From assembly GCA_027484685.1 (NCBI GenBank), contig JAIXSO010000015.1, positions 1 through 64,000 on the forward strand: a stretch of 64,000 bases of DNA. The letters run 5' to 3'. The first letter of the stretch is position 1. Every line of letters begins with the position of its first letter. The stretch comes from Bacteroidota bacterium. GTDB taxonomy: Bacteria; Bacteroidota; Bacteroidia; UKL13-3. Both the position numbers and the translations under genes were made by a program. Positions 23,462-63,407 of the stretch are shown here, one piece after another. The notes beneath the pieces are model-generated. The model searched no databases, was not told where the DNA came from, and saw only the letters and a list, made by a program, of their open reading frames with translations.

Positions 23462-23500
23462 TTGGCTCAAAAAAGTTTTAAAGTTTAGGAAGTGCTATTT

Positions 23501-23539
23501 AAGAACTGCCAACTAAAAACTAAGAACTAAAAACTAAAC
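23501..23539 (+). repeat. Degenerate word repeat, AAAACTAAGAACT family (single arm)
   Basis: AAGAACTGCCAACT is followed by AAAAACTAAGAACT and AAAAACTAAACT, ending against the hmgA ATG at 23541. The same words occur in two inverted arms between atpD and atpC (63093-63170). Confidence 0.7.
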
Positions 23540-23540
23540 T

Positions 23541-24698
23541 ATGGCATTTTACCACAAACAAGGACAAATACCCGCTAAAAGACATACGCAATTCAGAAAG
23601 CCTGACGGCTCACTCTATTCTGAAGAATTGGTTTCAACCGAGGGTTTTAGTAGTTTATACTCATTGGTTTACCACTGCCACCCACCTACTTTGGTTAAGG
23701 AAATTGGCGAGGCATACGATATTGGGCCTAAGGCTGCCATTGAAAAGAATCTGCAAAACCGTAGTTTTTTAACCTTTAAAACTACTCCTGTTGACGATTA
23801 TTTAAAAAGTCGCGTGTACACGCTTTTTAATAACGATGTTTATTTGGCTTCGGCTGCACCTCGCAAAAGCATGACAGATTATTTTTTCAAGAATGCGGAT
23901 GCTGATGAAGTATTATTTATTCATGAAGGAAGTGGTGTTTTAAAAACAGTTTATGGGCAAATTCCATTTGAATATGGCGATTATTTGGTAATTCCTCGAG
24001 GTACCATTTGCCAATTGCATTTTAAAACTGAGCAAAACAGAATTTTTATTACTGAATCGTTTTCGCCAATACGTCCGCCAAAACGTTATTTAAATCAATA
24101 TGGACAATTATTAGAGCACTCGCCTTATTGCGAGCGAGATATAAAATTACCTGAACTAAAAGAAACTTTTGATGAAAAAGGTGACTTTAAGGTTTTAATT
24201 AAAAAACAGGATATGATTTTCCCGTACACTTATGCCACACATCCATTTGACGCCATAGGTTGGGATGGATTTCAATATCCATTTGGGTTTAGTATTCATA
24301 ACTATGAGCCAATAACAGGTCGTGTGCACATGCCACCACCAATTCATCAAACTTTTGAAGGACATAATTTTGTAATTTGTTCGTTTGTGCCTCGATTATA
24401 CGATTACCACCCGCTTTCAATTCCTGCGCCTTATAACCACAGTAACGTAGATAGCGATGAGGTTTTATATTATGTTGATGGTGATTTTATGAGCCGCAAG
24501 CATGTAGAACGTGGTATGATAAGTTTGCATCCAAAAGGTATCCCACATGGTCCACATCCAGGAACGGTTGAAAAATCGATTGGTAAATTAGAAACCAAAG
24601 AATTAGCAGTGATGATTGATCCATTTTATCCTTTAAAAATAACCGAAGCTGCTATGCAAATGGAAGACCCTGGTTATTATAAAACTTGGGTAGAGTAG
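23541..24698 (+). CDS. hmgA: Homogentisate 1,2-dioxygenase
   Basis: A 385-residue homogentisate dioxygenase, which opens the ring of homogentisate to maleylacetoacetate in phenylalanine/tyrosine catabolism. It begins with AFYHKQGQIPAKRHTQFRKPDG, typical of the bacterial family. The likely iron ligands are His300 in PYNHSNVDSDEVLYY with the acidic Asp306/Glu307, and the His of IPHGPHPG. It would normally neighbour hpd; here about 1.3 kb with a glycosylase-like gene and a toxin-antitoxin module separates them. No other pathway gene, such as fumarylacetoacetase, is in the window. Confidence 0.93.
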   Translation: MAFYHKQGQIPAKRHTQFRKPDGSLYSEELVSTEGFSSLYSLVYHCHPPTLVKEIGEAYDIGPKAAIEKNLQNRSFLTFKTTPVDDYLKSRVYTLFNNDVYLASAAPRKSMTDYFFKNADADEVLFIHEGSGVLKTVYGQIPFEYGDYLVIPRGTICQLHFKTEQNRIFITESFSPIRPPKRYLNQYGQLLEHSPYCERDIKLPELKETFDEKGDFKVLIKKQDMIFPYTYATHPFDAIGWDGFQYPFGFSIHNYEPITGRVHMPPPIHQTFEGHNFVICSFVPRLYDYHPLSIPAPYNHSNVDSDEVLYYVDGDFMSRKHVERGMISLHPKGIPHGPHPGTVEKSIGKLETKELAVMIDPFYPLKITEAAMQMEDPGYYKTWVE

Positions 24699-26033: not shown

Positions 26034-27161
26034 ATGAATACCGAACAAACAACAGAAATGTTACCTCAAACATCAGATTTCCTACCCTTACACGGAACTG
26101 ATTTTATTGAATTATATGTGGGAAATGCCAAGCAAGCAGCCCATTTTTACAAAACAGCTTTTGGGTTTCAAAGTTTGGCTTATGCTGGTCCTGAAACAGG
26201 TGTTAAGGATAGAGTAAGTTATGTATTGATACAAAACAAAATGCGCTTAATGCTTACTACGCCTTTGCACTCTGATTCGCCAATTGCAGAGCACCATAAA
26301 AAGCATGGTGATGGAGTTAAAGTATTAGCTTTGATGGTAAATGATGCTTACGATGCATTTGAACAAACTACCAAACGCGGTGGTGTAGCCAGTTTAGAAC
26401 CAAAAACCTTAACCGATGCCAATGGCGAAGTGCGCATGAGTGGTATTAAAACTTATGGAGAAGTGGAGCATTGGTTCATTGAACGCAAAAATTACAATGG
26501 TGTGTTTATGCCAGGTTTTGTTAAGTGGGAAAGCGCTTATAATCCAGAGCCAACAGGTTTATTATATGTTGACCATTGTGTAGGAAATGTTGATTGGAAT
26601 CAAATGAATCCGTGGGTTAGTTTCTACGAAAATGTAATGGGTTTTAAAAATATCCTTTCGTTTGATGATAACGACATCAGTACTGAATACTCTGCTTTAA
26701 TGAGTAAAGTAATGAGCAATGGAAACGGATATGTTAAATTCCCTATTAACGAGCCTGCGGAAGGTAAAAAGAAAAGCCAAGTAGAAGAATACTTGGAGTT
26801 TTACGAAGGTGAAGGTGTTCAGCATATTGCTATTGCTACACTTGATATTGTTTCAACTGTTAAAAAGTTAATGGCTCGTGGTGTGGAGTTTTTAAAGGTA
26901 CCAAGTAGCTACTACGATGATTTATTAGACCGTGTTGGTCCGATAGAAGAAGACATTGAACCACTAAAAGAATTAGGTATTTTGGTTGATAGAGATGATG
27001 AAGGTTATTTACTGCAATTATTTACCAAACCAGTTGAAGACAGACCAACTATGTTCTTCGAAATTATTCAACGCAAAGGTGCTAAAAGTTTTGGAAAAGG
27101 AAACTTTAAAGCCTTATTTGAAGCCATAGAACGCGAACAAGCAAATAGAGGTAACTTATAA
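26034..27161 (+). CDS. hpd: 4-hydroxyphenylpyruvate dioxygenase
   Basis: A 375-residue 4-hydroxyphenylpyruvate dioxygenase (VOC fold), which makes homogentisate, the HmgA substrate. The three iron ligands are expected in VDHCVGNV, GVQHIAI and MFFEIIQRKG, and the C-terminal GKGNFKALFEAIEREQ is a family hallmark. The start is 4 nt after hicA. Its stop codon abuts the CAACTGTCAACT repeat region. Confidence 0.94.
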   Translation: MNTEQTTEMLPQTSDFLPLHGTDFIELYVGNAKQAAHFYKTAFGFQSLAYAGPETGVKDRVSYVLIQNKMRLMLTTPLHSDSPIAEHHKKHGDGVKVLALMVNDAYDAFEQTTKRGGVASLEPKTLTDANGEVRMSGIKTYGEVEHWFIERKNYNGVFMPGFVKWESAYNPEPTGLLYVDHCVGNVDWNQMNPWVSFYENVMGFKNILSFDDNDISTEYSALMSKVMSNGNGYVKFPINEPAEGKKKSQVEEYLEFYEGEGVQHIAIATLDIVSTVKKLMARGVEFLKVPSSYYDDLLDRVGPIEEDIEPLKELGILVDRDDEGYLLQLFTKPVEDRPTMFFEIIQRKGAKSFGKGNFKALFEAIEREQANRGNL

Positions 27162-27308
27162 GTTGTCAGTTGATGGTTGTCAGTTGTTAGATATAAAATT
27201 TAATATCATAGTTTTATTTTAAATTATTAGTAGTTTAGTCTAACAACTGTCAATCATCACTTATTAAATATGCTAGTCTATCAACTGTCAACTAACAACC
27301 ATCAACTA
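27161..27308 (+). repeat. CAACTGTCAACTA word repeats as inverted arms
   Basis: Left arm 27161-27190 (AGTTGTCAGTTGATGG...) begins on the last base of the hpd stop codon. Right-hand arms 27241-27260 (TAACAACTGTCAATCATCAC) and 27275-27308 (TATCAACTGTCAACTAACAA...) read as its complement. An AT-rich spacer separates them. The structure fills the hpd-to-LOG gap and could form a long imperfect stem-loop. A further arm of the same words is at 58589-58620. Confidence 0.75.
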
Positions 27309-27316
27309 AAAAAAGT

Positions 27317-28084
27317 ATGGCAAAAAAGAGCATTTCAGAGTTAAGGGCTAAATATTCCAATAGCGAACGCAGGTTTTTAGAAGGTCCACGAAGCCGAAGA
27401 AGAGAGTTTATATTTTCTTTTAAAGTTTTGTACGAATTTTTAAAAGGATTTAGAGCGCTACATTTTGTGGGGCCTTGCGTAACTGTGTTTGGTAGTGCAA
27501 GGTTTAAAGAAGATCATTTTTACTACCAAGAAGCCATGAAAATGGGTGCTGAAATAAGTAAAATTGGCTTTACTGTTATGACTGGTGGTGGGCCTGGAAT
27601 TATGGAAGCTGCTAACCGCGGTGCTTTTGAAGCAAATGGACGTTCAGTGGGTTGTAATATTGTGCTGCCTCACGAACAATCAGAAAATCCTTATGTGCAA
27701 AAATCGGTTGAGTTTAGGTACTTTTTTGTGCGTAAAACTTTATTGCTAAAATACTCCTATGCTTTTGTAATAATGCCCGGTGGTTGGGGAACAATGGACG
27801 AATTGTTTGAAGCACTTACTTTAATTCAAACAGGTAAAATGGAGGAATTTCCAGTAATTATTTTTGGTAAAGAATATTGGAAAAACTTAATTGATTTAAT
27901 CAATGACATGATTGAAAAAGGAACTGTATCACCTGACGATTTAAGGCATTTATTAATTACCGATTCAATTGATGAAAGCATAGAACATTTAAAAAAATAC
28001 AGCATCGAAAAATTTAGTTTAAAGCACAGAAAAAGAGTTAAAGCAATGTCTTGGCTTGGCGAGCTTATTAAATGGAAAAAATAA
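27317..28084 (+). CDS. LOG-family (TIGR00730) protein
   Basis: A 255-residue Rossmann-like protein of the LOG/lysine-decarboxylase-like family. The two signature motifs are VMTGGGPGIMEAANRGA and IMPGGWGTMDELFE. Members hydrolyse nucleoside 5'-monophosphates such as cytokinin ribotides, although the bacterial physiological substrate is often uncertain. It is followed after 1 nt by the DgkA-family gene. Confidence 0.9.
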   Translation: MAKKSISELRAKYSNSERRFLEGPRSRRREFIFSFKVLYEFLKGFRALHFVGPCVTVFGSARFKEDHFYYQEAMKMGAEISKIGFTVMTGGGPGIMEAANRGAFEANGRSVGCNIVLPHEQSENPYVQKSVEFRYFFVRKTLLLKYSYAFVIMPGGWGTMDELFEALTLIQTGKMEEFPVIIFGKEYWKNLIDLINDMIEKGTVSPDDLRHLLITDSIDESIEHLKKYSIEKFSLKHRKRVKAMSWLGELIKWKK

Positions 28085-32891: not shown

Positions 32892-32922
32892 TAAAAATAC
32901 AGCATCTGCTGTATTTCGCAAA
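32892..32922 (-). promoter_or_regulatory. Kinase promoter with the operator palindrome in its spacer
   Basis: On the minus strand, TTTG (32919-32922), 19 nt, then TATTTTTA (32892-32899), one base off TANNTTTG, ten bases before ATG 32882. The palindrome 32896-32915 lies between and over these elements, unlike the target promoters where it sits upstream. Binding here could block the kinase promoter. Confidence 0.55.
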
Positions 32923-39501: not shown

Positions 39502-40020
39502 TCAATTTTCAAGTTGCCACGAAAAATTACTCTCATCATTTGAAATTACATTTCTGTTTGCTTTGTTTTTTATAATTTGCCAATGTGCTGTGTAAGTTCC
39601 AGCACCATCAGAAAAAAAGCCATATAACATAAATCCAACGTTTGTTTTACTCAGTTTAAATTGTTTTTCTCTAATAGTTAGTGAGCCATAATTAACATTG
39701 TACATGCCATTGGTTTCTAGTGGAATTGATGTTCCATTTATTACTATGGTTAGCTTTAATAATTTGTTTTTGGGCAAGTCTAAACCTTGATCCATACCAA
39801 ACCATATTTGTCCATCAATCAAGCAAATAGTTTTCCAGCCATTTTCTTTCCACCCTAGACCTACCATGCAAGTATCGTAATGATGCTTGGTGCTATCAAA
39901 TTTTTCAATAACGGCAACCAATTCAATGTTTTTTGCTAAAACTACTTTTGAAGTAATTTTTTGTGCAGATATTTGAGAGACGTTAAGTGCTAGCAATACA
40001 AAAATAATCCATACTTTCAT
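39502..40020 (-). CDS. Secreted protein downstream of the ABC efflux operon
   Basis: A 172-residue exported protein with signal peptide MKVWIIFVLLALNVSQISAQ. The mature part (CMVGLGWKENGWKTICLIDGQIWFG..., GFFSDGAGTYTAHWQIIK) matches no family I recognise. Its ATG overlaps the stop of the membrane fusion protein gene by one base (TAATG), so it is translationally coupled to the efflux operon and probably functions with it, perhaps as a periplasmic partner. Confidence 0.65.
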   Translation of the reverse strand: MKVWIIFVLLALNVSQISAQKITSKVVLAKNIELVAVIEKFDSTKHHYDTCMVGLGWKENGWKTICLIDGQIWFGMDQGLDLPKNKLLKLTIVINGTSIPLETNGMYNVNYGSLTIREKQFKLSKTNVGFMLYGFFSDGAGTYTAHWQIIKNKANRNVISNDESNFSWQLEN

Positions 40021-41114
40021 TACTCCACCTTCTCCACATTAGGGTCTTTAATTTTATCTTCTTTTTTTATTCCACCTAAAATTTCTATGTTAATTCCATC
40101 GCTAAGGCCAGTTTGCAAATAGCGTTTTTCAAATGTTTGTGGGGCAGTTTCTACTTCTACAAAAGTTTTATTGTTTTCAAATTGCAATACACCTTCGGCC
40201 AAGGCCAATACTTTTTCTTTTTTAGCTAAAACTATATCGGCTGTGCTGCTATAACCCGCGCGTAAAAACACGCCTTTTTGTAAGTTTACTTTTGCTTTTA
40301 TTTGAAACTGAATGGCACCATTTTCTTTCACTCCTTTTGGTGCTATGTACTCTAAATTGGCATTGAATTTTACAGTATCTAAAGCGCCAATGGTTAAAAT
40401 TAAGTCCATTCCGGGTTTAATTTTTCCTACTTCACTTTCATCAACCTTACCATCAAAAATCATTTCGCCCATATCGGCTATGGAGGCAATGGTAGTCCCT
40501 TCGTTAAAATTATTACTTTCAATTACACTTCCACCTTCTTTAACTGGAATATCCAAAATCATTCCATCAATGGTGCTGCGCACAATGGTATTGGTAACTT
40601 TTCCGCCCGACTTACTCACACCTTCTTTAATCAAAGCAATGTTATTTTCGGCAGCTTCAAGTTCCTCTTTAGCATTTTTATAAGCCAAGGCAAAAGGTTG
40701 GTATTCCGATAGTGAAATCATTTTTTGATCAAACATTTTTTGGTTTCTATCAAAATCAATTTTTGCATTATCTAAAGCCAATTTAGCACGCGTAATGCGG
40801 CTTTCGGCATTGGCTAAATTAATCATGTTTGGTATAATTTTTATACGCGCAATCATATCGCCTTTGCTTACATGCGTGCCTGCTACTACAAATATTTTTT
40901 CAATAATACCCGAAACTTGAGGTTTTATATTGATTTCTCTACGAGGCACAATGCTACCCGTAGCTAAAGTTTTTTTAACAATGTCGGTTTCAAAAGCTTG
41001 TGTGGTTTTAAATACCGTTGGCTTTTCTTGATTTTTATTATACAAGTAATAAATGGTGTACACAAACAAAGCACCAAGTGCCACAAATACCAATGTTCTA
41101 ATTATTTTTTTCAT
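40020..41114 (-). CDS. HlyD-family membrane fusion protein (MacA-like)
   Basis: A 364-residue periplasmic adaptor from ATG 41114 (MKKIIRTLVFVALGALFVYTIYYLY, one membrane anchor). An earlier GTG at 41135 lies in the intergenic repeat and is rejected. The lipoyl half-motifs are visible in INIKPQVSGIIEKIFVVAGTHVSKGDMIARI and TIVRSTIDGMILDIPVKEGGSVIE, with a coiled-coil hairpin between them (about 100-160), then beta-barrel (FDGKVDESEVGKIKPGMDLIL) and membrane-proximal domains. It would bridge the ABC permeases to an outer-membrane channel not encoded here. Confidence 0.9.
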   Translation of the reverse strand: MKKIIRTLVFVALGALFVYTIYYLYNKNQEKPTVFKTTQAFETDIVKKTLATGSIVPRREINIKPQVSGIIEKIFVVAGTHVSKGDMIARIKIIPNMINLANAESRITRAKLALDNAKIDFDRNQKMFDQKMISLSEYQPFALAYKNAKEELEAAENNIALIKEGVSKSGGKVTNTIVRSTIDGMILDIPVKEGGSVIESNNFNEGTTIASIADMGEMIFDGKVDESEVGKIKPGMDLILTIGALDTVKFNANLEYIAPKGVKENGAIQFQIKAKVNLQKGVFLRAGYSSTADIVLAKKEKVLALAEGVLQFENNKTFVEVETAPQTFEKRYLQTGLSDGINIEILGGIKKEDKIKDPNVEKVE

Positions 41115-41130
41115 GTTTTTATAGCTTTTG

Positions 41131-41262
41131 CCCACTGGCAGCTAGCCTCTGGCCTATTTATTTTTTATTATTTTTTGTCCGTTGGCTAAAGCACAACGGC
41201 AATTGATACTATACTTCAATATTTTTTCTCCAACTTTTTGCTAGTGGCTAGAAGCCAGAAGC
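41131..41262. repeat. CTGGCAGCTAGCC / GGCTAGAAGCCAG inverted word repeat
   Basis: Left arm 41131-41154 (CCCACTGGCAGCTAGCCTCT...) and right arm 41240-41262 (GCTAGTGGCTAGAAGCCAGA...) are imperfect inverted complements around an AT-rich spacer. They fill the gap between the membrane-fusion and permease genes. Confidence 0.75.
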
Positions 41263-41264
41263 AT

Positions 41265-42512
41265 TTACTCGGTTCTCAACGCTTCCACTGGACTGATATT
41301 AACTGCTTTTTGTGCAGGAATAATGCCGGCCATTGCACCTGAAAAAATTAATATTGCTAATGCTTTTACGGCAATAATAATATCTACTCCTGGGTTTTGA
41401 AACATGCCACTTTCTTGTCCTTTTATGGCAGCACTAACAGCCTCTAATGCAAACACACCACAAACTAAACCAAAATAACCTGCTACTGAGGTAAGCAAAA
41501 TACTTTCAGCAATAACTTGGCTCATAATATTTATTGGAGTAGCTCCAAGTGCCCTGCGAACGCCAATTTCTTTGGTTCGTTCTTTTACTATAATGAGCAT
41601 AATATTACTCACCCCAATTACCCCAGCTAATAAAGTTCCAATACCTACAATCCAAACCAACAATTCTATGCCACGAAATAAACCCATTAATTTTTTAAAC
41701 TCCTTTTCGCTGTTCCAAGTACCAATAGCCCTATCATCGGCTGGTGAAATATGATGGCGGTTTTTCAATAATGTTTTTATTTTTTCTTCTACTAAAGAAG
41801 CCGAGTAAGCAGGTTTGGCTGTTAAAGTAAACCAACCAATTTTACCACCAAAGTTAAAGGCATTTTGAAAAGTAGTAAATGGAATATAAATGGTTTGCAG
41901 TTTTTCTTGCACATCATCGCCACTGTTATCAGCTTTTAAGGTGCCAATTACTTTAAAATAAATACCATTTACTTGAATGTATTTGTTCAGTGGTGCTTCA
42001 TTTTTAGGAAATAAAATTTCCATAACTCTGGGAGCAATTACACAAACTTTTCTGCGTTCTTTTATATCTAATTCGTTTAAAAAACGTCCTTCTACAATTT
42101 TAAAAGTTTGAATTAATTTGGTGTCAGGATAATCGCCACGAACGGTAAATGCACCTGTAAATTTTCCTCTGCTAACATTGTTTTCTCCTCGGTAACCGCC
42201 TAATTGCGCAGCAGGAGCAATAACTGCCAATTCTGGAATATTGTCTTTTATGGCTTGTATATCTTCTACCTTAAAATCGAAAGTTCTTCCGCGAGGTAAA
42301 CCTTTGTAAGCTATTGAAGTTTGTTGGGTCCACATATACACCGCATTTTTAGCAGTGCCGCCAAACGATTCGGTAACACCATTTTCCAAACCATGTCCAG
42401 AACCTAGCATAATAATCAACATAAAAATACCCCAAAACACCCCAAAGGCAGTTAAGGCAGTTCTTAGTTTATTTTTACTAAGCGTTTGATATATTTCTTT
42501 TAGTTTTTCCAA
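41265..42512 (-). CDS. ABC transporter permease (MacB type), second copy
   Basis: A 415-residue MacB/FtsX-type permease. One N-terminal membrane helix (LRTALTAFGVFWGIFMLIIMLGSG) is followed by a periplasmic MacB_PCD domain (about 45-240) and three C-terminal helices containing the FtsX hallmark GVSNIMLIIVKERTKEIGVRRALGATP. It ends SPVEALRTE as in MacB permeases. It is a paralogue of the adjacent gene at 42646-43878; two such permeases probably heterodimerise. Substrate unknown (macrolide, lipoprotein or peptide). Confidence 0.92.
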   Translation of the reverse strand: MEKLKEIYQTLSKNKLRTALTAFGVFWGIFMLIIMLGSGHGLENGVTESFGGTAKNAVYMWTQQTSIAYKGLPRGRTFDFKVEDIQAIKDNIPELAVIAPAAQLGGYRGENNVSRGKFTGAFTVRGDYPDTKLIQTFKIVEGRFLNELDIKERRKVCVIAPRVMEILFPKNEAPLNKYIQVNGIYFKVIGTLKADNSGDDVQEKLQTIYIPFTTFQNAFNFGGKIGWFTLTAKPAYSASLVEEKIKTLLKNRHHISPADDRAIGTWNSEKEFKKLMGLFRGIELLVWIVGIGTLLAGVIGVSNIMLIIVKERTKEIGVRRALGATPINIMSQVIAESILLTSVAGYFGLVCGVFALEAVSAAIKGQESGMFQNPGVDIIIAVKALAILIFSGAMAGIIPAQKAVNISPVEALRTE

Positions 42513-42527
42513 GGTTATTTATTTTTT

Positions 42528-42642
42528 GCTGCTAGCTGCTGGCCTCTGGCACCTAGCCAATTATTTTATTCTATTTTTGTTTATGTAATCATTTAGAACT
42601 AATTGTTTTTTGCCAGTGGCTAGAGGCTAGTTGCCAGAAGCC
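42528..42642. repeat. Second inverted word repeat of the GGCTAG/CCAG family
   Basis: Left arm 42528-42558 (GCTGCTAGCTGCTGGCCTCT...) and right arm 42611-42642 (TGCCAGTGGCTAGAGGCTAG...) are imperfect inverted complements with an AT-rich spacer. They lie between the two permease genes. Confidence 0.75.
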
Positions 42643-42645
42643 AAT

Positions 42646-43878
42646 TTACTCCGCTCTCAAGGCTTCAATAGGTTCAATTTTTGCGGCTCTTCGTGCGGGG
42701 AAAAACCCTGCTAAAAGTCCAGCTAATATCAATACTCCCAAAGCTACCAACACTACTTTAAATTCAACTTCGGGTTTTCTAAAAAAGTCACTATCGGGAA
42801 TATATTTTTGAGCCAATTCTAATACACCAATTCCGAGCATCATTCCAATATAACCTGATAGTGCTGTTATAAAAATACTTTCTTGAATTATTAATGATAT
42901 AATATTAAAAGGTGTTGCGCCTAATGCTTTTCTAATTCCAATTTCTTTGGTTCGTTCTTTTACCACTATCATCATAATATTACTTACACCAACAATTCCA
43001 GCAATTAAAGTACCTATTCCTATAATCCAAACAAACAATTGAATACCATTTATTAAACCCATGATACGCTTAAATTCAGTTACATTATTCCAAACAAAAA
43101 CCGCTTTTTGGTCTTTTGGGTCAAAATGATGTTTTTGCGCTAATACTTTATACACTTCCTCTTTTATGGTTTCGCTTTTATCCATATCTGATTCAGGTAA
43201 AGTAAAAATGATTTGGTCTAGTTTATTATCGTTTCCAAACACACGTTGCGAAGTACTTATTGGAATATAAGCTCTTCGGTTATCGTCAGGTCCACCAGCA
43301 TCTTTAAAAACACCTATCACTTTGAATGGAATATTATTGATATTGATTAATTGATTAACTGGTTCTTCTGTTTTAAATAATTCATCAACTACTTGTTGAC
43401 CAATGGCACAAACTTTTCGGCACTCTTTTATGTCTAATTCATTAACAAATCGGCCTTTTTGTACTTCAATTTTTTCGGCATAAATCATATCGTAATTGCA
43501 ACCTTTGGTGCTAAAGCTACCATAACGATTTTTAAAATTATATTGATTTACATCCCACAGTTGTAATCTTGGCGAAAGGTGTTCAATGGTTTTTACGCTT
43601 TTACCAATCGATTCGTAATCTTGATTAGTCAGTTTTATATCTCTGCCAGGTTGAATGCCATCGTAAGCTACCGAAGTGCGTCCGTTATTGAACCAAACGC
43701 TATTCACAGCATCGTGCGAGAATTGGAATTTTACGCCATTGCCCAAACCATTGCCTGCACCTAATAAAACTATGAGCATAAAAATACCCCAAGCCACACT
43801 AAACCCTGTAAGGAAAGTGCGGAGTCTATTTTTGCTAATAGACGCAAATATTTCTTGCCATTTATCTATATCAAACAT
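42646..43878 (-). CDS. ABC transporter permease (MacB type), first copy
   Basis: A 410-residue MacB/FtsX-type permease with the same layout as its neighbour: N-terminal helix (LRTFLTGFSVAWGIFMLIVLLGAG), periplasmic domain, and C-terminal helices with GVSNIMMIVVKERTKEIGIRKALGATP; it ends IEPIEALRAE. The two permeases are similar throughout but clearly diverged. Operon order on the minus strand is ATPase, permease, permease, fusion protein, secreted protein. Confidence 0.92.
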   Translation of the reverse strand: MFDIDKWQEIFASISKNRLRTFLTGFSVAWGIFMLIVLLGAGNGLGNGVKFQFSHDAVNSVWFNNGRTSVAYDGIQPGRDIKLTNQDYESIGKSVKTIEHLSPRLQLWDVNQYNFKNRYGSFSTKGCNYDMIYAEKIEVQKGRFVNELDIKECRKVCAIGQQVVDELFKTEEPVNQLININNIPFKVIGVFKDAGGPDDNRRAYIPISTSQRVFGNDNKLDQIIFTLPESDMDKSETIKEEVYKVLAQKHHFDPKDQKAVFVWNNVTEFKRIMGLINGIQLFVWIIGIGTLIAGIVGVSNIMMIVVKERTKEIGIRKALGATPFNIISLIIQESIFITALSGYIGMMLGIGVLELAQKYIPDSDFFRKPEVEFKVVLVALGVLILAGLLAGFFPARRAAKIEPIEALRAE

Positions 43879-47255: not shown

Positions 47256-47582
47256 ATGCAAATTAGTGAAGCGCAAAAACAGGTGGATGAATGGATAAAA
47301 ACCATTGGAGTTAGGTATTTTAACGAATTGACCAATACTGCAATTTTAATGGAAGAAGTAGGTGAGTTAGCTCGTATTATGGCTCGCAAATATGGTGAAC
47401 AAAGTTTTAAGGCCAATGAAAAAGACAAAGACCTAGCCGATGAAATGGCCGATGTGCTTTGGGTTTTAATATGTTTGGCCAATCAAACAGGAGTAGATTT
47501 AACAACAGCTTTTGAAAAAAACATGGCTAAAAAAACAAACAGAGATGCTACAAGGCATTTGGAGAATGAGAAGTTGTTGTAA
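47256..47582 (+). CDS. MazG-like nucleotide pyrophosphohydrolase
   Basis: A 108-residue all-alpha NTP pyrophosphatase. The metal-binding acidic motifs are EEVGELAR near residue 34 and the downstream DLADEMADVLWVLICLANQ with its Asp/Glu pair. Such proteins hydrolyse (d)NTPs to monophosphates as house-cleaning enzymes. Single-domain length fits MazG-like rather than full MazG. It is divergent from the MFS gene and followed by the repeat at 47589-47622. Confidence 0.88.
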   Translation: MQISEAQKQVDEWIKTIGVRYFNELTNTAILMEEVGELARIMARKYGEQSFKANEKDKDLADEMADVLWVLICLANQTGVDLTTAFEKNMAKKTNRDATRHLENEKLL

Positions 47583-47588
47583 ATTTTT

Positions 47589-47622
47589 AGCTACTGGCCT
47601 TCAGCAACTAGCAGCTGGCTGG
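47589..47622. repeat. GGCTAG/CCAG family word repeat after the MazG-like gene
   Basis: AGCTACTGGCCTTCAGCAAC followed by TAGCAGCTGGCTGG. Single region whose two halves are partly complementary, starting 7 nt after the stop. Confidence 0.6.
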
Positions 47623-57232: not shown

Positions 57233-57263
57233 TGCCAGAGGCAAGGAGCTAGCTGCCAGTTGC
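57233..57263. repeat. GGCTAG/CCAG family word repeat at the purA stop
   Basis: TGCCAGAGGCAAGGAGCTAG followed by CTGCCAGTTGC. It ends on the last base of the purA stop codon. Confidence 0.6.
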
Positions 57264-58528
57264 TATTTTCTCATTATCGTTTCATCTCTATCTGGTCCAA
57301 CCGAAATGGTATCTACTTTAATTCCTATTTGCTCTTCTACAAATTGCATATAAGTTTTAAAAGTTTCAGGTAAATCATTGTAGTTTTTTATTTTACCTAA
57401 ATCGCCAGTCCAACCTTTAAAGGTTTGGTATTGAGGATTAATATTGGCATCTACCAAACTGTAAGGAATTTTATCACTTACAGTTCCGTCAATTTCGTAA
57501 GCATGGCAAACTGGAATTTCGCCTAAACCACTTAATACATCGCTTTTGGTACAAATTAAATCAGTAACACCATTTAGCATAATACTGTATTTTAAAGTTG
57601 GTAAATCTAACCAACCAGTTCTACGCGGGCGACCAGTTGTTGCTCCAAACTCGTGACCAAGTTGGCGTAATTCTTCACCTTGCTCATTGTCTTGCTCAGT
57701 AGGGAAAGGGCCACTACCAACGCGAGTACAATAAGCTTTAAAAATTCCGTAAACTCTTTTTATTTTTTGCGGAGCAACACCCAAACCATTACAAACACCA
57801 CCTGTAATGGTATTTGATGAAGTTACAAAAGGATAAGTTCCATAATCAATATCTAATAAAGTTCCTTGAGCGCCTTCGGCCAATACCTTTTTTCCTTGAT
57901 TCATTAAATCATTCAAGAAGTATTCGGTATTTACTATTTTGAATTGTTTTAAAAATTCAATTGCTTCAAAAAATGCAGGTTCATGTTCAGCCATATTGTA
58001 TGGATAGTTAAATCTATCTAACAAGGTTCTGTGGTTAGCTGCCACTACTTCATATTTTTGATTAAAATTAGTTGCTAAAATATCGCCAACACGTAAACCA
58101 CTTCTACCAATTTTATCTTGGTAAGTTGGGCTAATTCCGCGTAAAGTTGAACCAATTTTATGTTCGCCTTTATTGGCTTCACTTGCTGCATCTACCAAAC
58201 GGTGAGTAGGTAAAATTAAATGCGCTTTTTCCGAAATGTATAAATTAACCAATGGTTCAGCGCCACCTAAGGTAATTTTTTCAATTTCTTTTTTAAAGGT
58301 AATGGGGTCAATTACTACACCACTGCCAATAATATTGATGCAATGTTTGTGAAAAATACCTGAAGGAATGGTGTTTAAAACATGCTTTTGTCCGTTAAAC
58401 TCTAACGAGTGACCAGCATTTGGTCCACCTTGGAACCTTGCCACCACATCGTACTGAGGGGTAAGTACATCAACAATTTTACCTTTACCTTCATCGCCCC
58501 ATTGCAGGCCTAATACTACATCTATCAT
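57263..58528 (-). CDS. purA: Adenylosuccinate synthetase
   Basis: A 421-residue adenylosuccinate synthetase, which joins IMP and aspartate with GTP in AMP synthesis. The N-terminal GLQWGDEGKGKIVDVL is the GTP-binding loop. QGGPNAGHSLEF, IGSTLRGISPTYQDKIGRSGLRVGDI, EGAQGTLLDIDYGTYPFVTSSN and TTGRPRRTGWLDL are all family signatures. Length is normal. The Fur-family gene lies upstream with repeats between. Confidence 0.97.
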   Translation of the reverse strand: MIDVVLGLQWGDEGKGKIVDVLTPQYDVVARFQGGPNAGHSLEFNGQKHVLNTIPSGIFHKHCINIIGSGVVIDPITFKKEIEKITLGGAEPLVNLYISEKAHLILPTHRLVDAASEANKGEHKIGSTLRGISPTYQDKIGRSGLRVGDILATNFNQKYEVVAANHRTLLDRFNYPYNMAEHEPAFFEAIEFLKQFKIVNTEYFLNDLMNQGKKVLAEGAQGTLLDIDYGTYPFVTSSNTITGGVCNGLGVAPQKIKRVYGIFKAYCTRVGSGPFPTEQDNEQGEELRQLGHEFGATTGRPRRTGWLDLPTLKYSIMLNGVTDLICTKSDVLSGLGEIPVCHAYEIDGTVSDKIPYSLVDANINPQYQTFKGWTGDLGKIKNYNDLPETFKTYMQFVEEQIGIKVDTISVGPDRDETIMRK

Positions 58529-58537
58529 ATTTCTATT

Positions 58538-58567
58538 GCTTCTAGCTACTGGCTTCTAGCCCCTAGC
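58538..58567. repeat. GGCTAG/CCAG family word repeat upstream of purA
   Basis: GCTTCTAGCTACTGGCTTCT followed by AGCCCCTAGC, 10 nt upstream of the purA start codon. Confidence 0.6.
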
Positions 58568-58588: not shown

Positions 58589-58620
58589 CTATCAACTATC
58601 AACCGACAACCATCAACTAA
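58589..58620. repeat. CAACTATCAACC word repeat at the Fur-family stop
   Basis: CTATCAACTATCAACCGACA followed by ACCATCAACTAA. It extends over the Fur-family stop codon. The same words form the arms at 27161-27308; here two word families stand side by side in one 88-bp gap. Confidence 0.65.
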
Positions 58621-59108
58621 TAATCAGGTTTTGGAACTACTTTATTACATGTTAAACAATTTCTATTTTCATCCATTTTGGGATTTCCAAAAAGGTATAA
58701 CGAGTGGTTGGTAACTTCAAACTGCATCAAATCGCCCATCATGGTTTTTATTTGATGAATTCTAGGGTCGCAAAACTCTAAAATATTGCTACACACATTG
58801 CAAATCATGTGATCGTGTTGCCTAAATCCATACGAACGCTCAAAACGAGCCAAATTTTTACCAAATTGGTGTTTTATAACCAATCCACAGTCCAACAGCA
58901 AATCAAGGGTATTATAAACAGTAGCTCGGCTAACGCGGTAATTGCGTTTTTTCATGTGTTCAAATAGCGTTTCTACATCAAAATGCTCTTTATTACTATA
59001 AATTTCATCTAATATAGCAAAACGTTCTGGCGTTTTACGCTGCTCGTTTTGTTCTAAAAAAACAATGAATTTTTGCTTTACTTCTTCCTTAATTTGATCG
59101 TTGCTCAT
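58617..59108 (-). CDS. Fur-family metalloregulator
   Basis: A 163-residue Fur-family repressor. The N-terminal winged helix contains TPERFAILDEIYSNKEHFDVETLFEHMKKRNYRVSRATVYNTLDLLLDCGLV. The metal/dimer part has HDHMICNVCSNILEF with a CxxC, and a second CLTCNKV near the C-terminus, so a structural zinc is likely. Whether it responds to iron, zinc or peroxide cannot be decided. About 330 bp upstream (59109-59434) is geneless AT-rich DNA without a clear consensus promoter. Confidence 0.9.
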   Translation of the reverse strand: MSNDQIKEEVKQKFIVFLEQNEQRKTPERFAILDEIYSNKEHFDVETLFEHMKKRNYRVSRATVYNTLDLLLDCGLVIKHQFGKNLARFERSYGFRQHDHMICNVCSNILEFCDPRIHQIKTMMGDLMQFEVTNHSLYLFGNPKMDENRNCLTCNKVVPKPDY

Positions 59109-59434: not shown

Positions 59435-60310
59435 ATGAAAACCATCAAATTATTGTTAATCATTAGCCAAATGCTGGTTTGTGTTCAGTTTATCAATGCA
59501 CAAGCTGTGATGTCGAACGTAAGTTATATGTACTTATCAAGAAATTCACAAAATGAATTAAAATTTTTATTAAGAGATACTTACGATATTGATCCTAAAA
59601 AAGACACCAATTTTGAATATATTATGATTCCTAGTGAAAGTATGCTTGTGAATGGGAATAAGGTTTCCTATAAAATTAAAAAATTTCCAAACAAAGTGGA
59701 TACCATTTTGTATTTTGATTTTGATTTAGAAGTAAATGATAAAATAAATAGAGGATATTTTAATTATTTGTATGTGGTTGATTCCATTAAATCAATTCAA
59801 CTTTTGGATAGTAACTTTTACATGCATTGGTTTTTAAGTTCTAAGTAAGCGGGAGCGGGAAATCTTATTTGGATTAAAGGCTTAGGCGATAGTAAAAGAG
59901 GTTGGATTAGTGATGATGCTGGATTTACTCCAGAAGGTGCGCCAGGTTTACAAGCAATTTGCAGAAACAATAATTTGGTGTATTGGTACAATGGCGATAA
60001 TTTTTTTAAACCTGATACAGTAAAACCAACATGTAATTTTGATAGCTTATTTATTAAGTACGTATCAGCCCCTAAAATAAAGTCAAATGCAACAAATATG
60101 TATCCTAATCCCGCAACAGAAAAATTATTTATAGAAAATAATTTAGCTCAAAATAGTAATTATATCATTACCAATTTATTAGGGCAAGAAATAGATAAAG
60201 GGCTTTTAAAATCAGAAATAGACATCAGCCATTTATTAAACGGTGTATATGTGTTAAAAATATTTGGTATCAATAACCAAACCCAAGTTTTTAAATTTAT
60301 AAAACAATAA
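59435..60310 (+). pseudogene. T9SS cargo gene interrupted by one in-frame TAA
   Basis: One reading frame runs from ATG 59435 to the stop ending at 60310, interrupted only by TAA at 59846-59848 (codon 138). Upstream is a signal peptide (LLLIISQMLVCVQFINAQ) and a beta-rich part ending WFLSSK. Immediately after the TAA the same frame continues AGAGNLIWIKGLGDSKRGWISDDAGFTPEGAPGL, CRNNNLVYWYNGDNFF and a complete type A sorting domain (MYPNPATEKLFIENN ... FKFIKQ). The continuation is typical of T9SS cargo with a GNLIWIKGLG core. The gene was therefore intact recently. Truncation, readthrough or a sequencing error are the options. Confidence 0.75.
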
Positions 60311-60313
60311 ACA

Positions 60314-61387
60314 ATGATTAAACATATACTATTAATTTTGATTGTAATTCTTTCGTTTAGAGGTTTTTCTCAAGTTTCACTAACTTTAAAAGACGTACCT
60401 CAAATAGGAACAAAAATCTGTTACAATAATATTTATAATGATACATCTATTTTGAATAACTTCAGTTTTTCTAAATCGGGTATTGATAATTTTTGGGATT
60501 TTTCAAATTTAAATATCAAACAATTAGATACAAATAGTTTCACTAATCCACAATTTACAGAATTTAAGGATTACTTTTCAAATTCTACATTGGCAGTTAA
60601 TGATCTTGGTAACTTAAGTACATTAATTTATTATAAACAGGATTCTATGGCATTTTATGAAACTGGGATAGCTACTTTTTATCCTCCATGTCCTGGAATT
60701 CAGTCTTATGTGTATTCTGGACCAATGCAAGTTATAAAGTTTTCAGCTAATTATGGTGATGTTCATTTTGACACTGTTATTTTGAATTCTAAAATTTACC
60801 CAAATCTTTCTGGCGACACTTCATTCTTTAAAAGATATATCTATGTTAAAAGTGAAATAGTAGCAACAGGTAAAATTAAATTACCATTTGGTTTATTTGA
60901 ATCTTTTTTAAAGAAAACAAGTGGTTTATTTGTGGACACTACTTGGAAAAAGGTTGAAGATGGGTCATGGAAGTATGAGATAGAAATACAACCCAGAGGT
61001 TCTGTTAATTTTACTTGGTATTGTAATAAATCAACATTTTTTGTCGCTCGGGTCAATAATTGGTATGAAGGAATAAATGGAAAAGATATGCAGGACAATA
61101 TTCACTATCAAATGAACAATTATGCCAATTTGAAAAGTTTAACTGTAGAGGATATAAGCAGTTTAAAAACAAAGATTTACCCTAATCCCGCAACTGAAAA
61201 GTTATATATTGAAAATAATCTAGCTCAAAATTGTAATTATTTAATCACCAATTTATTAGGGCAAGAAGTAGATAGAGGGCTTTTAAAATCTGAAATAGAC
61301 ATCAGCCATTTATTAAATGGAGTTTTTGTGTTAAAAATAGTGAGTACCAATAACCAAACCCAAGTTTTTAAATTTATAAAACAATAA
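60314..61387 (+). CDS. T9SS-sorted secreted protein
   Basis: A 357-residue exported protein with signal peptide MIKHILLILIVILSFRGFSQ. The body (NFSFSKSGIDNFWDFSNLNIKQLD..., TGKIKLPFGLFESFLKKTSGLFVDTTWKK) matches no domain I can name. The C-terminal type A sorting domain from about residue 286 (IYPNPATEKLYIENNLAQNCNYLI ... FKFIKQ) is nearly identical to that of the interrupted gene 3 nt upstream, although the rest differs. The two are probably cotranscribed. Confidence 0.8.
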   Translation: MIKHILLILIVILSFRGFSQVSLTLKDVPQIGTKICYNNIYNDTSILNNFSFSKSGIDNFWDFSNLNIKQLDTNSFTNPQFTEFKDYFSNSTLAVNDLGNLSTLIYYKQDSMAFYETGIATFYPPCPGIQSYVYSGPMQVIKFSANYGDVHFDTVILNSKIYPNLSGDTSFFKRYIYVKSEIVATGKIKLPFGLFESFLKKTSGLFVDTTWKKVEDGSWKYEIEIQPRGSVNFTWYCNKSTFFVARVNNWYEGINGKDMQDNIHYQMNNYANLKSLTVEDISSLKTKIYPNPATEKLYIENNLAQNCNYLITNLLGQEVDRGLLKSEIDISHLLNGVFVLKIVSTNNQTQVFKFIKQ

Positions 61388-61499
61388 TCCATTTTGGCAT
61401 AATGGGTTTTAAAAAATATCTTCTTTTAAAATAAAAAAATAGGTTTAAAAACCAATTGGTAAATTTATTTAATGCTTAAAATCACACTATAAGTTTTAA

Positions 61500-63077
<1,578 letters not shown>

Positions 63078-63092
63078 TTATAAAATAGTTTT

Positions 63093-63170
63093 CAGTTCTT
63101 AGTTTTTAGTACTTAGTTGCAATAACTATTTAAAAACTAAGAACTAGGAACTAAAAACTAAGAACTAAAC
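63093..63170. repeat. AAAACTAAGAACT word repeat as inverted arms between atpD and atpC
   Basis: Left arm 63093-63120 (CAGTTCTTAGTTTTTAGTAC...) is complementary to right arm 63132-63170 (AAAAACTAAGAACTAGGAAC..., repeated twice). The spacer is only 11 nt, so the transcript could fold into a long imperfect hairpin directly before atpC. Confidence 0.75.
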
Positions 63171-63173
63171 AGT

Positions 63174-63407
63174 ATGCAATTAGATATAATAACAGCCGAT
63201 AAAACACTTTTTAGTGGTGAAATTGAAATGGTTACTTTACCTGGAACTGATGGTACTTTTCAAATTTTGAAAGGTCACGCAGCTTTGGTAAGTAGCTTAA
63301 TTAAAGGACAAGTGGTGGTAAAAGGCACTGAAAATGGTAATCAATCTTTTGATATTACTGGCGGTATTGTTGAAATATTAAACAATAAAGTAGTAGTTTT
63401 AGCTTAA
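63174..63407 (+). CDS. atpC: ATP synthase F1 subunit epsilon, short form
   Basis: A 77-residue epsilon subunit consisting only of the N-terminal beta-sandwich (LDIITADKTLFSGEIEMVTLPGTDGTFQILKGHAALVSSL, ending GGIVEILNNKVVVLA). The regulatory C-terminal helical hairpin of about 50 residues found in E. coli is absent, so epsilon-type inhibition of ATP hydrolysis is not expected. Short forms are common in Bacteroidota. A terminator follows. Confidence 0.92.
   Translation: MQLDIITADKTLFSGEIEMVTLPGTDGTFQILKGHAALVSSLIKGQVVVKGTENGNQSFDITGGIVEILNNKVVVLA

Follow-up and report, generated by a model that had tools for sequence, protein, structure and literature searches.

Short degenerate tandem arrays with a period of 7 or 8 nucleotides (nt), which sit against the edges of genes and face outward from the gap toward the gene, are dispersed between the genes of a Bacteroidota bacterium (GTDB lineage Bacteria; Bacteroidota; Bacteroidia; UKL13-3) and recur in other members of the phylum. 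The arrays came to attention in a stretch of 64,000 nt (GenBank assembly GCA_027484685.1, contig JAIXSO010000015.1, positions 1 to 64,000 of the forward strand; hereafter the window), in which a sequence-only reading had reported inverted words of the GGCTAG/CCAG family in two gaps of an operon for an ABC transporter. That observation is confirmed as real, and it is both larger and more regular than first described: missed at the time were the 7-bp spacing of the words, the existence of further vocabularies and of arrays with an 8-bp period, the change of vocabulary from one relative to another, and a distribution that extends across the phylum. Analysis of the sequences establishes the period, the vocabularies, the placement at gene edges, the outward polarity, the rapid turnover, the switching and, as a prediction, the folding of paired arms into hairpins. 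Tentatively, with a probability of about 0.42, we take the arrays to be dispersed non-coding intergenic repeats that arise by 7/8-nt slippage and copying, and whose paired arms behave like bacterial interspersed mosaic elements (BIMEs).

In the operon, an arm is a degenerate array of strict 7-bp period, (GCYAGNN)n at the right edge of a gap and the reverse complement at the left edge. In each unit, four letters are fixed, one is C or T, and a further two serve as spacer, giving GCCAG or GCTAG plus two. Among 118 distinct arms, drawn from three related genomes plus a few others, C and T are found at core position 3 in a ratio of about 1:1, and the spacers are mostly AA, TT, AG, CA, TA, CT, TG and CG. 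The original description, that these are not simple tandem repeats because the words vary and shuffle, is thus corrected to degenerate tandem repeats of exact 7-bp period; the distance from one core to the next peaks at 7, 14 and 21 bp, mainly in intergenic DNA. The notion of a fixed vocabulary, by comparison, held up well. The pattern GCYAGNNGCYAGNNGCYAG, with at most two mismatches, matches 17 times in the window, against 0.13 expected, and not one of 100 dinucleotide shuffles reaches 17, which argues against an origin of the words in base composition alone. Genome-wide there are 80 exact three-unit matches and none to the reversed pattern, a control that is valid for GCYAG but invalid for the CAACYRN heptads described below, whose reverse is nearly the same pattern. 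Full reading covered approximately a quarter of the genome, as 1.2 Mb in stretches, with mechanical gene calls. In these stretches, two-unit arrays number 48 in intergenic DNA (~14% of the total) and 10 inside crude open reading frame calls, with none in either compartment for the reversed control, so that the arrays are not equally abundant within genes.

Within the gaps, placement is far from random. The association with start and stop codons, proposed from inspection, is confirmed statistically: GCYAG arms are concentrated in intergenic DNA and at gene edges, lying a median of 14 nt from the nearest edge, as opposed to 34 nt under random placement in the same gaps, and CAACY arms lie 6.5 nt from it (39 nt at random). 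Outward orientation is found for 41 of 48 GCYAG arms, at stops and starts alike, and for all 16 CAACY arms; together with an 11:1 excess of -+ over +- neighbours for GCYAG, this substantiates the inverted pairing. The polarity can also be recovered without reference to any vocabulary, the outward strand of the arrays being A+C-rich at starts (22:5) and at stops (34:15). Base-composition skew was ruled out as its source, since the edges of array-free gaps at stops are not A/C-rich outward and show, if anything, slightly the reverse (173:214). Gaps with two arms are predominantly flanked by tandem genes (54 of 62, with six convergent and two divergent; these come from three related genomes and are not all independent), compared with 486 tandem and 126 divergent among all 706 gaps. 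One paired array ends with its right arm directly at ssrA, the gene for transfer-messenger RNA (tmRNA; L057:1129-1498, position C10:241129 of genome G000).

The genome uses about ten vocabularies, of which GCYAG is one. A sequence-blind scan of intergenic arrays returned 213 of period 7 and 98 of period 8, and 13 to 26 for each of the other periods tested (5, 6 and 9-13). The recurring heptads besides GCYAG are CAACYRN, RWACTRN, GCAATNN, AWTTCAW, CANNTCY, CGAAYAN, GACNATR and CGCAYTY, and CAATYNNN represents a family of 8-mers.

The reach of these vocabularies differs. GCYAG arrays are present in all nine other genomes of the genus, in which metagenome-assembled genomes (MAGs) predominate, and in a few other genera of the family, most genera being without them; across the phylum, few other genomes have them (16 of 246), frequently in the form of perfect repeats. 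Of 119 genomes in the class, 34 contain CAACYRN arrays; in two genomes of other families (G376 and G081), these are arranged in the same mirror fashion, following stops and preceding starts. The orthologous neighbourhood of the MacB permease in other Bacteroidota offers a locus that was not chosen for its repeats. Here, 48 of 60 intergenic arrays (in 16 kb of gaps) have period 7 or 8, as against six such arrays in 333 kb of genes, and the polarity ratio is 20:1 for starts and, with p = 0.08, 18:8 for stops. Pontibacter isolates carry 8-bp GAATGAGY arms in the same layout at the orthologous MacB gap; because arrays occur in isolates such as these and Thermoflexibacter, we rejected the idea of a MAG artefact. 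Separately, telomere-like perfect heptads, (GGGTTTT)n and (AACCCAA)n, were seen in gaps near a MacB permease in other Bacteroidia MAGs (L260:4393-4492 and L264:546-647).

Comparison of close relatives, which the sequence-only reading had proposed as a check, reveals that the arms differ between relatives, GCYAG being present or replaced by other vocabularies. We matched 118 gaps between genomes G000 and G003, and in 76 of these the flanks reach 93% identity or more. With flank identity equal between the two groups, the median identity is 0.81 for the 24 gaps with arrays and 0.95 for the other 52 (p = 0.04). The mirror-image layout can persist while the vocabulary changes, between relatives with ~96% identical flanks: RWACT arms upstream of ssrA in G000 are GCYAG arms in G003, RWACT at window position 63078 becomes CAACY in G003, GCYAG in the gap 42528-42642 becomes CGCAYT in G006, and GCYAG at 47583 becomes TGAATKT. 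Arrays may also come and go, as one gap measures 164 bp in G000 and 19 bp in G003.

The same vocabulary stands on both sides of a gap in 14 of 32 cases, when 7.1 would be expected by permutation (p = 0.002), and the transcripts of such same-vocabulary pairs are predicted to fold stably (median z -3.4 over 13 gaps, versus -1.4 for array-free gaps). The loops between the arms look unrelated and range from 12 to 93 nt. In the reading that we favour, local 7/8-nt slippage and the copying of word arrays between sites would make and rewrite the arms; the arrays are excluded from coding regions, and it is their A/C-richer strand that reads outward in the direction of the gene; and a same-vocabulary pair would give rise to a hairpin in the intercistronic transcript. 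Such a hairpin would most likely resemble those of repetitive extragenic palindromic (REP) sequences and BIMEs, shielding or attenuating the operon mRNA between cistrons, and by analogy it is this action on mRNA that we consider most likely for the paired arms. Lone arms and mixed pairs are probably partial, remodelled, remnant or half-built elements devoid of hairpin function.

Several observations weigh against this reading. What it mainly fails to account for is the outward polarity that lone arms and mixed pairs have in common. More than half of the two-armed gaps mix vocabularies, and in most of these the polarity is nevertheless retained, for which hairpins give no explanation. Most array gaps have one recognisable arm, and lone arms are predicted to be unfolded (median z -0.1). 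Swapping partners among GCYAG arms improves the pairing over that of the true partners (permutation, one-sided 0.988), from which it follows that one arm is not a copy of the other and that perfect pairing is not kept; an origin of the arms as mutual inverted duplicates was rejected on this ground, and for the GCYAG vocabulary the partner-swap permutation gave no sign of inverted duplication or of selection for perfect pairing. In conserved arms, core letters change less than variable ones (6 of 264 fixed core positions, 17 of 158 variable positions, p = 5e-4; 86 of 1483 at other gap sites), which speaks for the favoured reading, but this test is partly biased, the arms being detected via their cores, and word shuffling without selection could yield part of the pattern. 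The turnover comparison between array gaps and other gaps (p = 0.04) is marginal. Finally, the array at ssrA abuts a tmRNA gene, which has no start codon, so that a role in translation initiation is not general; a start-codon or translation signal was rejected as the general role of the arms for this reason and because they are equally frequent at stops.

A by-product of mutation, in which 7/8-nt slippage and microhomology-mediated template switching rewrite the gaps, nothing is selected and arrays survive wherever intergenic DNA tolerates them, is a somewhat unlikely account of the whole. It fits the fast change of arms between relatives and the perfect or near-perfect, young arrays found in some of them, such as (GGGTTTT)n in L260 and L264, and in many bacteria the long tandem units are most commonly heptamers, for which polymerase slippage has been proposed (PMC4679880, PMC4692102). 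Slippage alone, however, would give neither arms that face outward at starts as well as stops, contrary to the background skew, nor the 11:1 excess of -+ neighbours for GCYAG, and it would not produce a vocabulary common to dozens of unlinked sites or an excess of same-vocabulary partners. The polarity would be explained if Bacteroidota carried an active, polar DNA-writing process, a dedicated generator rather than slippage, that lays arrays of 7/8-nt words at gene edges. On either side, the G/T-richer strand would then point 5' to 3' toward the interior of the gap, much like a 3' end extended by a template-guided enzyme, each genome keeping its own set of permitted words and sites switching vocabulary as units. 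We found no other support for template-guided extension, and regard such a process as improbable.

Recognition of the arms as DNA is another possibility, although we give it little chance. A DNA-binding protein might recognise the five-letter core, with the repeat count tuning its binding and the arms serving in regulation or nucleoid organisation; the conservation of four core letters amid variable C/T and spacer letters would suit this, as would an inverted symmetry that is independent of gene direction. On the other hand, adjacent units 7 bp apart lie off the same helix face, the vocabulary of a gap changes between near-identical relatives, such that the regulator would have to change equally fast, and no candidate protein was identified. 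A miniature mobile element whose ends are heptad arrays and whose transposase (RAYT/IS200-like or other; RAYT, REP-associated tyrosine transposase) is encoded at another site in the genome is very improbable. Its dispersed inverted ends of fixed polarity, the gap of 164 bp in G000 that shrinks to 19 bp in G003 and the 15 matches to Y1 transposases in the genome are what such an element would predict. Against it, the neighbourhoods of RAYT-type genes are without heptads (2 of 20 loci have a single hit), and those at C10:219561 and C10:320906, which we inspected, are flanked by short palindromes instead, one with many copies of CTCCGAAGGAGTT. Miniature inverted-repeat transposable elements have terminal inverted repeats, a shared internal sequence and target-site duplications; here inverted arms are present, the loops appear unrelated, and no target-site duplication was seen in the paired gaps when these were examined by eye.

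The short tandemly repeated repetitive (STRR) sequences and very small mobile repeats of Nostoc-type cyanobacteria are degenerate 7-mers dispersed between genes, and offer a lead toward the present arrays. Closer at hand are the TAACTGA heptamer direct repeats of Beggiatoaceae, Cyanobacteria and five Bacteroidetes (MacGregor 2015, PMC4679880), which likewise consist of 7-nt units, nearly all intergenic and near start codons. One set in Flexibacter litoralis lies past a stop in reverse orientation and so fits the outward rule, and other heptamers were noted beside the TAACTGA repeats in Gramella; paired outward arms, a set of degenerate vocabularies or switching were not reported (PMC4679880). 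CAACTGA and related words occur in the present degenerate arrays. The intergenic heptamers GGGAATC in Xanthomonas and GGGGA(C/T)T in Nostoc (PMC4692102) also have period 7, lie mostly between co-directional genes and near one neighbouring gene, and vary in array length and sequence among close relatives; unlike the present arrays, they are G-rich and quadruplex-forming, with about one vocabulary per genome and direct pairs. Our arrays share period, placement and variability with known heptamers; what sets them apart is their degeneracy, the multiple vocabularies, the outward orientation, the frequent pairing and the switching. Their tandem 7-nt units and intergenic location are those of long simple sequence repeats, but units within an array are not near-identical, given the C/T ratio of about 1:1 and several common spacers, hence the qualifier 'degenerate'.

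REP sequences, whose families have been reviewed (PMC3733652), are palindromes of 20-40 bp with an unpaired GTAG or CGTC tag, and some are linked to RAYTs (PMC6006769). REPs and BIMEs resemble the arrays as dispersed extragenic repeats, often in inverted pairs between genes and able to form RNA hairpins, for which roles in mRNA stability and transcription attenuation have been proposed (PMC3733652, PMC6006769). The likeness extends to same-vocabulary pairs, predicted to form mRNA hairpins, and not to lone arms. In place of a tagged palindromic unit, our arms have tandem 7-mers and variable loops; no constant GTAG or CGTC tag or REP palindrome was present among the arms examined (unit GCYAGNN). 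A RAYT/REP origin was rejected, as Y1-transposase genes are many but their neighbourhoods lack heptads. Independently of the arrays, the Y1-transposase (RAYT-like) gene at G000 C10:219561-219905 (L055-L056) is followed by many short palindromes, CAACTCCGAAGGAGTTG, REP-like repeats that are probably tied to it. A literature search by repeat sequences, with most subscription journals outside its range, found no paper. The sequence-only reading had known of no described element with this structure, which stands insofar as we found no description of outward, inverted, multi-vocabulary arms; heptameric intergenic repeats as such have been described (PMC4679880, PMC4692102). The inverted layout, the polarity and the vocabulary switching thus seem undescribed in searchable papers.

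The operon in which the arms were first noticed comprises an HlyD-like gene, two MacB-like permease genes and an ABC ATPase gene, and both gaps in question (41131-41262 and 42528-42642) hold two inverted arms each, as had been described. In the first gap, the left arm (41131..41153, minus strand), of the form (GCYAGNN)n, lies upstream of the HlyD-like gene (40020-41135, or to 41114 if the start is ATG) and the right arm (41240..41261, plus) against the stop of the first permease gene (41265-42512). A different short hairpin, CCGTTGGCTAAAGCACAACGG, is located between these two arms at 41179-41199; similar hairpins of the form CCGTTGGCT...AGCCAACGG recur in other gaps and in relatives. In the second gap, the left arm (42528..42557, minus) is upstream of the same permease gene and the right arm (42612..42643, plus) against the stop of the second (42646-43878). 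The further arms noted at 47589-47622, 57233-57263 and 58538-58567 are present, each against a gene edge. The GCYAG arm at 47587..47619 (minus) lies directly past the stop of a MazG-like gene (47256-47582) and is replaced by TGAATKT-type heptads in G003 and G006. Those at 57234..57266 (plus) and 58535..58567 (minus) stand against the stop and the start, respectively, of the adenylosuccinate synthetase gene (57263-58528). At the opposite edge of the latter gap, a CAACYRN-heptad arm (58590..58620, plus) abuts the stop of a FUR-like gene (58617-59108), making this a pair of mixed vocabulary.

Other vocabularies are represented by RWACT arms at 63083..63122 (minus; CAACY in G003) and 63123..63175 (plus), the latter adjoining the start of the next gene, by CAACYRN arms at 27151..27190 (minus), at the 3' end of the preceding gene, and 27274..27312 (plus), a few bases short of the ATG at 27317, and by an RWACT-type heptad array at 23486..23536 (plus), directly before the ATG at 23541. 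Rfam thresholds were reached in the window by two tRNAs only, and the arms match no known structured RNA. The window also contains a separate dispersed repeat, a palindrome like AATACAGCATCTGCTGTATT with four copies at gene ends between 32894 and 36433 (at 32894, 34585, 35825 and 36405), and a 225-nt direct duplication of 89% identity and 1077 bp spacing (60091-60315 and 61168-61392).

Since the arrays occupy many gene gaps in the genus and appear to change faster than other gaps, they matter for the reading, comparison and assembly of the gaps themselves, and of untranslated regions and operon spacing. Should paired arms determine mRNA ends or the ratio between cistrons, the vocabulary switches that keep the layout would amount to a natural compensatory experiment; if the arrays are only mutational, their restriction to periods 7 and 8 and their outward polarity would expose a copying process not yet known. 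The question can be put to the test in cultured Bacteroidota, as the Pontibacter isolates carry arms of the same layout.
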